This document shows, piece by piece, positions 58,440-64,000 of a stretch of 64,000 bases of DNA. The translations under genes and the position numbers were made by a program. The notes below the pieces were generated by a model. It did no database searches, was not told where the DNA came from, and saw only the letters and a list, made by a program, of their open reading frames with translations. Within the stretch, counting starts at the first letter, position 1. The number at the start of each line of letters is the position of its first letter. Source of the stretch: Brenneria rubrifaciens (GTDB lineage Bacteria > Pseudomonadota > Gammaproteobacteria > Enterobacterales > Enterobacteriaceae); contig NZ_CP034035.1 of the NCBI RefSeq assembly GCF_005484945.1, positions 1,798,001 through 1,862,000 of the forward strand. The letters run 5' to 3'.

Positions 58440-59219
58440 ATGGCTATCGAAAATAAAGTCGCGTTAGTAACCGGTGCCGGGCAGGGGATTGGCCGTGGTA
58501 TCGCACTGCGTTTGGCCAAAGATGGAGCATCGTTAATGCTGGTCGACGTCAATCGTTCCGGTCTGGATACAGTCGCTGCGGAAGTTGAAGCATTGGGGCG
58601 TAAGGCGTCGACGTTTGTTGCCGACATTGCCGACCGCGATCAGGTTTACAAAGCGATCGATCAAGCTGAGCAGCAGTTGGGAGGATTTGACATTATTGTC
58701 AACAATGCGGGAATTGCTCAGGTTCAAGCGCTGGCTGATGTTACCCCGGAAGAGGTCGATCGCATTATGCGTATCAATGTTCAGGGGACACTCTGGGGCA
58801 TTCAGGCCGCAGCGAAGAAATTTATCGACAGAAAACAGAAAGGCAAAATCATTAATGCTTGCTCCATTGCCGGTCATGATGGTTTTGCTTTACTCGGAAT
58901 TTATTCCGCAACGAAATTCGCCGTGCGTGCCTTAACCCAGACCGCCGCCAAAGAGTATGCCAGCCGGGGAATTACGGTGAACGCATATTGTCCGGGGATT
59001 GTCGGCACCAGTATGTGGCAGGAGATAGATCGTCGTTTTTCTGAAATTACCGGCACGCCGCTGGGCGAAACCTACAAAAAGTACGTGGCCGGTATTGCCC
59101 TTGGTCGTGCGGAAACGCCGGAAGATGTGGCTGGACTGGTGTCCTATCTGGCCGGTGCTGACTCCGACTATGTCACCGGTCAGTCCATTCTGATTGATGG
59201 CGGCATTGTTTATCGCTAA
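58440..59219 (+). CDS. Short-chain dehydrogenase, diacetyl/acetoin reductase (2,3-butanediol dehydrogenase) type
   Basis: This 259-residue SDR has TGAGQGIG (11-18), Asp36 after the second strand (NAD preference), NNAG (88-91) and the Ser142/Tyr155/Lys159 triad (CSIAG, YSATK). It resembles BudC-type enzymes that interconvert diacetyl, acetoin and butanediol. The budA/budB genes are not in this window, so the role is a family inference. It is followed by a strong terminator. Confidence 0.85.
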
Positions 59220-59249
59220 GCCCTTTTCCCTGGCCGCCGGGCATACAGC

Positions 59250-59277
59250 AAAAATCCACACAATTGCGTGGATTTTT
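59250..59277 (+). terminator. Terminator after the SDR gene
   Basis: AAAAATCCAC and GTGGATTTTT form a 10-base stem with a CAATTG-containing loop, ending in a T-run 31 bases after the stop. Near-identical hairpins recur at 61627 and 63044. Confidence 0.82.
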
Positions 59278-59345
59278 CTCGGGTGCCGGAGACCCTGCAT
59301 GCAGGATGTCGTCGCCGTCGCTGCACTGTGTGCCGCTAACCGCGA

Positions 59346-60206
59346 CTAAAGATAAGTGTTAAACCAGTCAGTCTGAACGTTGACTACGCGGTCGAAATGT
59401 TCGCCACTGTACATGTCATAGTGGCGAGCTTCCTCTTCAACATGAAGATGCTTTTTATTCGCTTTTACCGCTTCATATAACGCCCGCCCCTGCTCGGGAG
59501 CATTTACAGTATCATTCCCCGCCACAACCACCATTGTCGGACAGGTTACCAGCCTGGCGTTTTCCGCAGGCTTATATTGCAGGGTTTCTCTTACTGTAAG
59601 AAAAGGGATCTTAATATCCATTGCCGGATAGCGAGTTTTATTCGCCTCAAAAAATGCTTTTGATTCTTCATCGCTTAATACACGCGTTATGCCGACAAAC
59701 ATCTCCTTACCGGTGGCGCGCTGTTTCTCTGCCATCTTATTCAACGTAGCCATAAAGCCTGTTTTTTCTTCAACGGACATTTTTCCCGTGACAATCTCTT
59801 CTCCATCAGCAAACGCCATCTGACTGACGATACATTTGATATCAGGATGTTTCGCCGCGGCCCCGAATACATGGCAGCCACCTAATGATGTTCCCCACAG
59901 CCCAATACGGTTCTTATCAATATTCGGTTGATCTTTAACCCATTCAACAACCGTGAGGATGTCTTCGATTTGCATTGCCGGTACAAGACGGCCTCGTTCG
60001 CCGGTACTCGCGCCAAAACCCCTGTAATCGAAGGTAACAGTGCAGAACCCTGAATGCGCAAACGATTCGGCAAACGGCGGTAATAAGATCTCCTGTATGC
60101 CGCAGAATCCGTGGCACAAAATAATGACCGGCGCATTTGCAGTCAATATGGGTTTTCTTAGTGTAAGAGCGATGCCGTTAGGGAGTTGATGCGTTATTGT
60201 TTCCAT
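59346..60206 (-). CDS. Alpha/beta hydrolase
   Basis: This 286-residue hydrolase has the oxyanion block CHGFCGIQEI near residue 31, the nucleophile elbow GTSLGG (Ser107) and a late His (EEARHYDMY) as the third triad member. It resembles uncharacterised serine hydrolases of the peptidase/dienelactone type. It converges on the SDR gene across the terminator. The substrate is unknown. Confidence 0.83.
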   Translation of the reverse strand: METITHQLPNGIALTLRKPILTANAPVIILCHGFCGIQEILLPPFAESFAHSGFCTVTFDYRGFGASTGERGRLVPAMQIEDILTVVEWVKDQPNIDKNRIGLWGTSLGGCHVFGAAAKHPDIKCIVSQMAFADGEEIVTGKMSVEEKTGFMATLNKMAEKQRATGKEMFVGITRVLSDEESKAFFEANKTRYPAMDIKIPFLTVRETLQYKPAENARLVTCPTMVVVAGNDTVNAPEQGRALYEAVKANKKHLHVEEEARHYDMYSGEHFDRVVNVQTDWFNTYL

Positions 60207-60537
60207 TTCGGTGGCTATTCCTTTATTTCAGATAAATAAAATGTTGTGATTCTGAAGCGTTATTAATATAGCCGCTCCATCTGTTGGTTGCCACCATGCT
60301 TTGCCCGATTCAGCGAAATCGACAGATATTGTTCGACCTAACCTGAAACCAATCCGCCGAGCACGACTGAACGCTCTACTCAGTCAATTTATTTGATGCA
60401 TTATGTTAAACATACGGTATTTATTCTCATCTGGTAATGCGTAAAGTAGGGATAACCTAAGGCAGGAACAGGTTTGCTTCATCATGAACGATGCCCCGCC
60501 TACTGATAATTTCCCTGAAAACCAGGATAAACACATC
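60207..60537. other. Divergent promoter gap, no gene seen
   Basis: The 331-base gap between the hydrolase (minus) and the LLM oxidoreductase (plus) must hold both promoters. I see no clear consensus element or RNA gene in it. Confidence 0.5.
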
Positions 60538-61566
60538 ATGAAAAAGATTGGATTTTTGTCATTTGGTCATTGGACGCCGTCGCCGCAGTCTGGAACCCGT
60601 TCGGCCGCTGACGCGCTGCTGCAATCCATCGATCTGGCTGTTGCCGCCGAAGAACTGGGTGCGGACGGAGCCTATTTCAGGGTGCATCACTTTGCCCGGC
60701 AGCTCAGCTCGCCATTTCCCCTGCTGTCAGCGATAGGCGCGAAAACCCGGAGTATTGAAATCGGCACTGGTGTTATCGACATGCGCTATGAAAACCCGCT
60801 GTATATGGCGGAGGATGCAGGGGCGGCGGATTTGATCTCCGGCGGGCGTTTACAGCTTGGTATCAGCCGTGGCTCCCCGGAGCAGGTGATTGATGGCTGG
60901 CGCTATTTTGGTTATGCCCCTTCCGAGGGGGAAAACGAATCTGATATGGCGCGCCGTCACACCGAAGTGCTGTTGGAGATGTTACGTGGCGAGGGCTTTG
61001 CGAAACCTAACCCACAGCCGATGTTCCCGAACCCGCCTGGCCTGTTGCGGCTTGAGCCTCATTCCGAAAGTTTACGCGATCGTATTTGGTGGGGCGCCGG
61101 TTCGAATGCGACAGCGGTGTGGGCTGCGAAACTGGGAATGAACCTGCAAAGTTCCACGTTGAAAGACGATGAAACCGGCGAACCTTTCCACGTTCAGCAG
61201 GCCAAGCAGATCCGTGCGTATCGCGAGGCTTGGGCGGAAGCGGGGCATACACGTACGCCACGTGTCTCGGTCAGCCGCAGCATTTTTGCCCTGATGGATG
61301 ATCGTGACCGGATGTATTTCGGTTCAAACCGTGACGACAGCGATAAGGTCGGTTCTCTTGATGAGAAAACCCGAGCGATTTTCGGGCGCAGCTATGCCGC
61401 CGAACCGGACAAGCTGATCGAGCAACTGAAACAGGATGAAGCGATTGCCGAAGCGGATACGTTATTGCTGACGGTGCCGAATCAACTGGGTGTGGATTAC
61501 AACGTGCATGTTATCGAGTCCATTCTGAAACATGTTGCGCCAGCAATGGGTTGGCGCGACGTATAA
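60538..61566 (+). CDS. LLM-class flavin-dependent oxidoreductase (bacterial luciferase-like)
   Basis: This protein of about 342 residues has the luciferase-like TIM-barrel blocks YFRVHHFARQLSSPFPLLSA and GTGVIDMRYENPLYMAEDAG, followed by GGRLQLGISRGSPE. It uses reduced FMN, probably as a monooxygenase, and would need a flavin reductase such as the one 0.4 kb downstream on the other strand. The ATG at 60538 (MKKIGFLSFG) matches the family start. The frame opens at 60484. Confidence 0.85.
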   Translation: MKKIGFLSFGHWTPSPQSGTRSAADALLQSIDLAVAAEELGADGAYFRVHHFARQLSSPFPLLSAIGAKTRSIEIGTGVIDMRYENPLYMAEDAGAADLISGGRLQLGISRGSPEQVIDGWRYFGYAPSEGENESDMARRHTEVLLEMLRGEGFAKPNPQPMFPNPPGLLRLEPHSESLRDRIWWGAGSNATAVWAAKLGMNLQSSTLKDDETGEPFHVQQAKQIRAYREAWAEAGHTRTPRVSVSRSIFALMDDRDRMYFGSNRDDSDKVGSLDEKTRAIFGRSYAAEPDKLIEQLKQDEAIAEADTLLLTVPNQLGVDYNVHVIESILKHVAPAMGWRDV

Positions 61567-61579
61567 ATTTAAAATGAAA

Positions 61580-61613
61580 AACGCCTCGCATGTTCTACAA
61601 CATGCGAGGCGTT
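61580..61613 (+). terminator. Terminator after the LLM oxidoreductase gene
   Basis: AACGCCTCGCATGTT and AACATGCGAGGCGTT form a perfect 15-base stem with a CTAC loop, 13 bases after the stop. Confidence 0.85.
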
Positions 61614-61626
61614 AAATCTGGAAAAG

Positions 61627-61723
61627 AAAAATCCACGCAACGGCATGGGTTTTATCTATTTTTCTTGTCTTTATGAGATTTACTGAAACCTCATGAAACA
61701 CCAGAAGCCATTTAGACGTTGAA
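61627..61723. repeat. Left copy of a 97-base diverged direct repeat (relic of the ychF 3' end)
   Basis: This copy matches 63043-63139 without gaps at 73 of 97 positions by eye. It contains the hairpin stem and ends in TTAGACGTTGAA, which on the minus strand encodes the YchF C-terminus Phe-Asn-Val-stop. There is no ychF coding region behind it, so it is a relic. Confidence 0.8.
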
Positions 61724-61976
61724 TAGGTTTTTTTGTTTTATCTATTTATATGTGAGACTTTAATTCTGCCATTTAATCCAGCTTGTTAACGTCCTTATTA
61801 TATATCTCGCGGCTTGAGCGGCGCACAGGCCTGCCGGCAGAGGCACGGAGGGGAGGCCGCCACTAATGAATGTTTTTTAATTTATAGTTTTCCTTGCCTT
61901 AAATTTTATTTCCCGCGAATGTCGGGATATTTATTAGATTTTGATTCCACCATCCTCATTGAAAAACTGTCTTTGT
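61724..61976. other. AT-rich intergenic DNA, no gene seen
   Basis: A plus-strand frame at 61814-62167 runs into the flavin reductase gene and looks like chance. No promoter or RNA gene is supported here. Confidence 0.5.
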
Positions 61977-62633
61977 TTATTTCGTCAACTGGCGCGCCTC
62001 CCACTGTTCTTTGGTTAGGGTTTTTACATCAAACTGATCGCGCGTTCTGCAATAGGTATTGCCCCCCATTCGACCAATCACATCCATCAATTGCTGATCG
62101 ATATGCAGATTTTCAGGATTCACCGCGTCGCTGCGCACATAGACGCCGACCACTTCGCCGAGAATGATCTCGCGCGCCGCACCAACCTGCAGCGTGGTAT
62201 GACGGCGGCACTCGAGGGCAGCGGGAGCCGCGAGAATGCGCGGGCTACGCACCATTTTGCCTGGCGTGGTTTCCAGGCCGGCTTCCTGTAACTCATCGAC
62301 CTCCGGGCCAAATTTGATGGCGCAGATCTCCATCTGCTCAACCAGCGCATCGTCAACAATGTGCACGGTGAACTCACCGGTTTCGCGGATGTTGCGCGAG
62401 GTGTCTTTGAAGCGCATGTCGGTATAGTTTTCAACACCAATCGCCACAATGGCCGGATCGTGCGTTAACACGTTGAAGAAGCTAAACGGACCGGCATTGG
62501 GTAGGCCTTCCTTGCTAAGGGTGGTGACCAGCGCCACCGGGCGAGGGATCACCGTGCCGATCAGAATTTTGTAACGCTCACGCTCGCTTAACTCAGCAAA
62601 GTCAAAATAGGTATGTCCTGGCATATCTTTCAT
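61977..62633 (-). CDS. Flavin reductase family protein
   Basis: This 218-residue protein has the split-barrel flavin-binding fold (YKILIGTVIPRPVALVTTLS, PNAGPFSFFNVLTHDPAIVA, MRFKDTSRNIRETGEFTVHI). It would reduce or bind FMN. Its ATG at 62633 overlaps the stop of the truncated M24 gene by 1 base; an ATG three codons on is also possible. It lies within the region bounded by the ychF-end repeats. It may supply reduced FMN to the nearby LLM enzyme (inference). Confidence 0.85.
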   Translation of the reverse strand: MKDMPGHTYFDFAELSERERYKILIGTVIPRPVALVTTLSKEGLPNAGPFSFFNVLTHDPAIVAIGVENYTDMRFKDTSRNIRETGEFTVHIVDDALVEQMEICAIKFGPEVDELQEAGLETTPGKMVRSPRILAAPAALECRRHTTLQVGAAREIILGEVVGVYVRSDAVNPENLHIDQQLMDVIGRMGGNTYCRTRDQFDVKTLTKEQWEARQLTK

Positions 62634-63004
62634 TATTTAACTCCCGCAGCAATGCGATGTGTTTCTAACGGTGTGTGGCGGCTAAGATTCTCAAAGCCAT
62701 CTTTGGTGACAACGTAACAGTCACCAATGTTGCAGCCCGCTTTTAGCGGCTCAATCCATTGAGTATGAAGGACAAATACCATGCCTTCTTCCAGGCGATC
62801 GTAGTTGTGGGATGAGATATTGAAGCTATTCTGTCCACCGGCCATGCCGACGGAATGGCCAAGATTCGGGTTGTGCGGGCCATAAGTGGCGGGATAGACG
62901 TGCATCAATTTACGACCTTGCGCTTCCCAGTCGATATCACGGACATATTGCTGCGGGATCAGACGTGCGCCGCCGTCCGGCATCGGCGCCCAGTTGTACG
63001 GCAT
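62633..63004 (-). pseudogene. 5'-truncated M24-family metallopeptidase (Xaa-Pro dipeptidase type)
   Basis: The open frame gives about 123 residues from the ATG at 63004 (MPYNWAPMPD). It contains the C-terminal M24 blocks NLGHSVGMAGGQNSFNISSH, RLEEGMVFVLHTQWIEP and GCNIGDCYVVTKDGFENLSR. Intact family members have more than 350 residues, so the N-terminal domain and first metal ligands are lost. The break lies just before the ychF terminator. The stop overlaps the flavin reductase start, so the two were one operon. Confidence 0.8.
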
Positions 63005-63042
63005 AGTGCGCGCTTTTGACTTGTATCTCAGACGTATAAATG

Positions 63043-63139
63043 AAAAATCCACGCAATTGCGTGGATTTTAGGGTGTTTGTCAGCCTTGATGAGATTCGAT
63101 GAAACCTCATAAGACAGCTGAAGCTACTTAGACGTTGAA
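63043..63139. repeat. Right copy of the 97-base direct repeat (native ychF 3' end and terminator)
   Basis: This is the functional copy: it includes the last codons of ychF and its terminator palindrome. The left copy is at 61627-61723. Confidence 0.8.
63044..63069 (-). terminator. Terminator of ychF
   Basis: AAAATCCACGCAA and TTGCGTGGATTTT form a perfect 13-base palindrome, 59 bases after the ychF stop, with a T-run on the minus strand. Confidence 0.82.
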
Positions 63140-64000
63140 CAAAAAGTTCATCACGTCGCCATCTTTTACGATGTACTCTTTGCCTTCTGAGCGCATTTTC
63201 CCGGCTTCTTTGGCACCTTGCTCGCCTCTATAGGCAATAAAGTCTTCATAGGAGATGGTTTGTGCGCGGATAAAACCCTTTTCAAAGTCGGTATGAATCT
63301 TGCCTGCCGCCTGCGGCGCGGTAGCGCCGATCGGGATGGTCCAGGCACGGACTTCTTTAACGCCGGCGGTGAAGTAGGTTTGCAGGTTCAGCAGTTCGTA
63401 GCCTGCGCGGATCACACGGTTCAGCCCTGGTTCTTCCAGTCCCAATTCAGCCATAAATTCCGCACGGTCGGCATCGTCCAGTTCAGCGATATCTGATTCA
63501 ACCGCCGCACATACGGCCACGACAACCGAACCTTCTTTTGCCGCAATTTCGCGGACTTTATCGAGGTAGGGGTTATTCTCGAAACCATCTTCGTTAACGT
63601 TAGCGATATACATGGTTGGCTTCAGGGTCAGGAAGCTCAGGTAGCGGATGGCGGCTTTGTCTTCATCCGTCAGATCCAGTGAACGCAGCATACCCGCGTT
63701 TTCCAACTGCGGCAGGCATTTTTCCAGCGCGGCCAGTTCAGCTTTGGCATCTTTATCGCCGCCTTTGGCTCTCTTCTGTACGCGATGTATCGCCCGTTCG
63801 CAGGTGTCGAGGTCAGATAACGCCAACTCGGTGTTGATGACGTCGATATCGTCAGCCGGGTCAACTTTATTATTCACATGGATAATGTTGTCGTTTTCAA
63901 AACAACGTACGACATGGCCGATGGCTTCTGTTTCACGGATGTTGGTCAGAAACTGATTACCCAGCCCTTCGCCCTTAGATGCGCCTTTTACCAGACCGGC
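63128..64000 (-). CDS. ychF: YchF, Obg-like ribosome-binding ATPase, N-terminus outside the window
   Basis: The frame is open from the window edge and reads [20 protein letters not shown] before the in-frame GTG at 63877, so the gene continues beyond 64000. About 290 of 363 residues are present. The helical domain and the C-terminal TGS-like domain ([20 protein letters not shown], ending [11 protein letters not shown]) match YchF closely. YchF binds ribosomes and hydrolyses ATP. The 3' end is duplicated as a relic at 61.7 kb. Confidence 0.96.

Follow-up and report, generated by a model that had tools for sequence, protein, structure and literature searches.

Genomic islands that restore the end of the gene at which they insert are well known as a type. 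CP4-6, a P4-like island at the tRNA-Thr gene thrW in the Escherichia coli K-12 record, carries a tyrosine integrase of the Arm-DNA-bind_3 type near one end, direct repeats at the borders, a restored target end and mosaic cargo. The same traits are seen in the islands analyzed here, which stand behind the gene ychF. The stretch under study is a 64,000-nucleotide (nt) piece of the genome of Brenneria rubrifaciens (contig NZ_CP034035.1, positions 1,798,001 to 1,862,000; hereafter the window), and an interval behind ychF in this window is very probably what decay has left of an integrative genomic island, one that had used the 3' end of that gene as its insertion site.

Two published studies come near to this site. 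The pneumococcal prophage site PPH005 adjoins ychF, and its attB sequence is unrelated to the present site (PMC8637289). Forty-one E. coli hotspots were mapped in PMC10121019, whose list of flanking genes belongs to the supplements and may include the pair ychF-ycgV. No description of a ychF site in Enterobacterales, or of the present element, was found in the open-licence literature of PMC, including the consulted parts of PMC1796617, PMC8637289, PMC10121019, PMC6139387, PMC2978726 and PMC5493296; the E. coli hotspot may be in the supplement of PMC10121019.

The window contains two copies of the ychF 3' end in the same orientation. A preliminary description of this DNA had reported an ungapped, diverged direct repeat of 97 bp, and positions 61627-61723 and 63043-63139 are indeed identical at 73 of 97 sites without a gap. 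The extended pair, 61622-61723 and 63038-63139, is identical at 77 of 102, also ungapped. When the right copy was slid across the whole window on both strands, the runner-up place reached only 48 of 102, and the pair ranked first among 12 direct-repeat families in a repeat search of 60500-64000. The left copy was matched with an E-value of 1e-26 by a profile of 13 ychF 3' ends (11 relatives and both window copies), and with 7e-25 by a profile built from 31 element ends of other genomes, free of the window copies. Each copy consists of a core encoding F-N-V-stop, a hairpin of the 3' untranslated region (UTR), and a terminator. The core, TTCAACGTCTAA, is identical over its 12 nt in both copies (63128-63139 and 61712-61723, minus strand), and not a single ychF codon stands ahead of it in the left copy. 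Judged from these matches, the window has a genuine second 3' end of ychF in the left copy, and the earlier observation of YchF C-terminal codons with no gene behind them is confirmed. The gene itself ends as in the window in all 20 relatives fetched. The features of the two copies are as follows.

63128 to 64000, minus strand: 3' part of ychF, running off the window, with the stop codon at 63128-63130 (open reading frame (ORF) list; C-terminus VMNFLFNV).
63128 to 63139, minus strand: putative recombination core TTCAACGTCTAA in ychF, comprising the last three codons and the stop (role suggested by far copies in relatives and in E. coli).
63038 to 63139, minus strand: right copy, the 3' end that serves ychF, comprising the UTR hairpin and the terminator; probably element-borne, judging from E. 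coli.
61622 to 61723, minus strand: left copy, a displaced or older ychF 3' end without a gene (profiles and alignment).
61712 to 61723, minus strand: core TTCAACGTCTAA of the left copy (sequence match).

The proposed origin of this arrangement starts with a P4-like tyrosine integrase, which would act on the 12 nt that close ychF (TTCAACGTCTAA) and recombine them with an identical core carried by the element. Behind its core, the element would have about 90 nt that imitate the 3' UTR of ychF, with hairpin and terminator. After insertion, ychF would keep an intact end and a terminator, and its former 3' flank would be moved to the far side. The right copy in the window would be the imitation brought by the element, and the left copy the earlier flank of ychF, either native or derived from an older element. 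The integrase and the arm repeats would have been lost later, and a truncated M24 peptidase gene, a flavin reductase gene and a porin gene remnant would be leftover cargo.

The integrase P0001, to which the identities given here refer, contains the domains Arm-DNA-bind_3, Phage_int_M and Phage_integrase. Among the matches listed for 392 genomes, identity to P0001 reaches 75% or more at 32 places, distributed over 28 genomes, and is at most 46% at all others. Thirty-one of these 32 places lie behind a match of the ychF-end model on the same contig and strand, within about 3.6 kb (by eye); the remaining one (G080) is at a contig edge and could not be placed relative to ychF. Among the named GTDB loci, a ychF C-terminus was found 1-243 nt before the integrase match in 55 of 62, the exceptions being L124, L128, L129, L147, L159, L161 and L167. 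The integrase clade is thus linked to ychF. Its hosts include Mangrovibacter, Kosakonia, Kluyvera, Yersinia, Serratia, Pectobacterium, Pantoea and Providencia, as well as the Betaproteobacteria Comamonas and Thauera. Of the 5426 complete genomes of E. coli, 628 contain the integrase DNA. Phage relatives (248 records) all show less than 60% identity, and a scan of IMG/VR revealed no relative.

A covariance model of the ychF 3' end found matches in 216 of the 392 family genomes, several of which carry two or three such ends along the same strand, at distances of 1.5-52 kb. Islands were fetched from 13 genomes. An ORF for a P4-like integrase starts 215 nt past the ychF stop in five of them (G388, G292, G107, G207 and G296), interrupted in G388; the integrase is broken or partial in G099, G252, G215 and G411, and none is included in the ORF list of the fetched island in G238, G311, G373 and G396. 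On the far side of these islands, the copy of the ychF end begins with the core, which is exact in 8 of the 16 copies, altered by 1-3 nt in 7 and lost in one (G215). A broken integrase also follows the far copy in G099 and G207; therefore, elements landed there successively.

Filled and empty sites can be compared directly in E. coli. The site is empty in K-12, where ychF adjoins ycgV, and this empty site (at least 80% in one place) is kept in 4036 of the 5426 genomes. The core is followed by TTAATTTATTG or TTAATTTGTTG in five empty sites. The strains with a ychF-ycgV island, ET729, H6, RM14723 and S22EC, share the integrase clade, the core and the UTR imitation, and their ychF-side copy is unlike the flank of the empty site. 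Six far copies were examined, and four equal an empty-site sequence, each over 118 nt: those of H6 and A19 equal K-12, that of AR_0128 equals THO-010 and O104, and that of S22EC equals A20. The far copy of CH468 has one different base, within the core. From this comparison of sequences, the ychF-side copy in E. coli is read as the element's own and the far copy as the native flank; by analogy, the right copy in the window is probably element-borne. Strand exchange would accordingly fall on the final 12 nt of ychF or immediately ahead of them, with the UTR supplied by the element. The preliminary description had offered an old integration site, where an element restored the gene end, as one of two explanations. 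It gains support from intact islands with an integrase behind ychF, from far copies that start at the core, and from the filled and empty sites of E. coli.

Two further observations concern the same strains. In A20 (L184) and S22EC (L185), the ychF core gives way directly to an entirely different sequence, with neither the UTR hairpin nor ycgV, and the S22EC element brings the hairpin and the terminator anew; as this native flank is unrelated, the core alone is common to it and the element. The cargo of some islands includes annotated defence genes, namely Hachiman HamA in H6 (L170), and retron Ec67 with an ABC-three-component system in S22EC.

Outside the UTR, ATGAGTAC repeats with at most one mismatch were found at 31 of 31 integrase-side ends and at 17 of 21 far ends, where they sit 53-79 nt before the core; CH468 is left out of the far-end count because its core differs. 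An exact match is present in 30 of the 31 ends, versus none in 620 simple shuffles of those 31. These repeats look like arm sites of the integrase, and the UTR is placed between them and the core. Another motif, TCTCATGA, which is repeated in the UTR, was considered as the arm site and dropped: both sides have their ATGAGTAC pairs beyond the UTR, and the UTR motif is also present in five empty E. coli sites. Immediately beyond the arm repeats, an antisense piece of the 3' part of thrW was found at 10 of the 13 element far ends compared (ET729 (L168), H6 (L186), A19 (L187), AR_0128 (L188), S22EC, G388, G252, G099, G296 and G031). This piece starts at or a few nt from the annotated border of CP4-6 in K-12, and may be a vestige of another attachment site, either a second one or one used earlier.

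Standard base pairs occupy 93.4% of cells in the UTR hairpin across 64 distinct sequences. Changes on both sides were observed in 12 of 23 hairpin pairs, compared with 6.6 on average in shuffles and 5-7 in slid versions, in an alignment that was fitted to the model and so favours the structure. The Betaproteobacterial elements have a hairpin and a terminator of different sequence. The element UTRs were also compared for a tendency to follow their host: in 10 pairs, they are 79% identical within genomes and 74% between genomes, a gap driven by a few near-identical pairs.

Several points weigh against an island origin of the window interval or against parts of it. No ATGAGTAC repeat with at most one mismatch lies near either copy in the window, on either flank, and both flanks are cut at the place where it would be expected. 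No integrase stands 215 nt behind the ychF stop, and the genome has no integrase of the clade, its best relative (E-value 6.5e-75) falling outside. The former island is therefore proposed by analogy, and the interval is classed as a remnant rather than a working member. The exact core is missing in half of the 16 far copies in other genomes. In ET729 the far copy is also of the element type just after the core and native in the remainder, which is taken as a later conversion between the two copies; a crossover inside the UTR, suggested by this strain, was dropped as a rule, as the far copies of H6, A19, AR_0128 and S22EC equal the empty site from the core and that of CH468 has one change. Identities to other genomes (left copy, 74% to G007 and G010; right copy, 77% to G030 and 75% to G002) do not decide which window copy is element-borne. 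Finally, the module between the copies is behind ychF in none of the eight same-genus relatives.

The genes between and beside the copies are listed below.

62633 to 63013, minus strand: remnant of an M24 peptidase gene, covering the C-terminal part from about residue 350 to 474, the last one (Pfam PF00557; comparison with intact relatives).
61977 to 62633, minus strand: complete flavin reductase gene, 218 amino acids (Pfam PF01613).
61751 to 61914, minus strand: start of a dead porin-like gene, frame broken and cut short (DNA similarity to locus L173; translation; porin by eye).
59251 to 59276, no strand assigned: third terminator palindrome, a possible remnant of an older ychF end (genome palindrome search; no core beside it).

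The M24 ORF has 139 amino acids and has lost its N-terminal part. Its similarity to intact relatives of 474 amino acids starts at 63013, around residue 350 and 25-30 nt from the ychF terminator, in agreement with the truncated M24 gene and flavin reductase described earlier between the copies. Relatives of the flavin reductase with 80-90% identity were found in 7 other genomes among the 392, and among the matches listed (20 of 96 records) there are DNA relatives at 75-77% on Rhizobium and Agrobacterium plasmids. The porin-like remnant (61914-61751), similar in DNA to L173 only (67.7% over 167 nt, E-value 9e-8), stops 27 nt before the left core; neither it nor the third terminator is mentioned in the preliminary description. 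As the M24 gene is cut near residue 350 and the porin similarity ends at 61751, the module is cut on both sides, beside the copies. The M24 gene (474 amino acids) adjoins the flavin reductase gene in four translated enterobacterial loci (L172-L175), and a porin-like gene (by eye) is next in line at L172 and L173; by this likeness, the window module is a piece of a gene cluster that is intact elsewhere.

Homologous recombination, the other explanation in the preliminary description, would have replaced the ychF end with a fragment of a diverged ychF locus that had the M24 and flavin reductase genes behind it, leaving the resident 3' end downstream. The divergence of about 25% between the copies is as great as that between the ychF ends of two species. 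However, the intact M24-flavin reductase loci L172-L175 have no ychF within the 3.6 kb examined around them, the left copy starts exactly at the core, as do far copies in other genera (8 of 16 have it unchanged), and an explanation based on the integrase is seen intact elsewhere. Nothing requires such recombination, far copies starting at the core would not be expected from it, and it is considered improbable. Still less credit is due to a local duplication of the ychF 3' end with later insertion of unrelated genes between the copies. The two copies have the same orientation, and near-identical pairs of copies are known from G373 and G411, but the window copies are merely 75% identical, and a duplication does not predict that the ychF-side copy in E. 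coli is unlike the native flank while the far copy equals it. That the terminators are alike by chance or convergence has a negligible probability: 11 phage records also contain the palindrome of the terminator, and nothing else of the copies, but the profile E-values and the 77 of 102 against 48 of 102 refute this reading, with a similarity that spans codons and hairpin. An identity no better than that of terminators, which the preliminary description had named as contrary evidence, is thereby excluded.

Stretches of up to 10 kb behind ychF were compared in eight same-genus relatives, and apart from ychF-end copies, none of the eight has a match to 59229-63038 of the window; the cargo is foreign at this place. 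Relatives with one copy and no module, which the preliminary description had regarded as contrary evidence, do exist (G002, G007 and E. coli K-12), but they do not refute the island, since a site that is empty, or filled in another way, has this look. In G002 and G007, the SDR gene of 58440-59219 stands behind ychF. Beside this gene, the third terminator is the sole match of the palindrome in the genome (at most 3 mismatches) other than the one at ychF; it may mark an older event, but it has no core. Terminator-only copies also occur near ychF in G010, G027, G031 and G024. The only Rfam matches, to leucine leaders on the terminator palindromes, were below threshold (best 34 bits, cut-off 50) and were taken as chance. 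Between the left copy and the third terminator, at 59346-61566, an alpha/beta hydrolase and a luciferase-like monooxygenase are encoded; these genes are not behind ychF in the eight relatives and are possibly cargo of an older element.

Beyond the window, we consider it reasonably probable that a Gamma- and Betaproteobacterial integrase clade is dedicated to the ychF 3' end and keeps, between core and arm repeats, a maintained imitation of the UTR, with a terminator and a hairpin showing compensatory changes. Insertion would be silent for ychF at both the mRNA and the protein end, and repeated insertions would leave a row of ychF ends recording past events. In Enterobacterales, islands make wide use of the 3' end of this conserved gene for docking, and some of them have annotated defence genes. 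A diverged copy of the ychF end can serve as a search handle for old islands, even those without an integrase, as in the window. The copied UTR also makes it testable whether an element must keep its target gene intact at the mRNA end and terminator, in addition to the protein.

Compared with the E. coli ychF-ycgV islands, which have the same integrase clade, core and UTR imitation together with an intact integrase and other cargo, the window has lost the integrase and the arm repeats. CP4-6 differs from the ychF islands in having no ATGAGTAC arm pairs near intF. The ychF islands target a protein gene, and the part that they restore includes about 90 nt of 3' UTR. The kind of element is known; what is unusual is that it copies the 3' UTR of its target together with the hairpin and the terminator.
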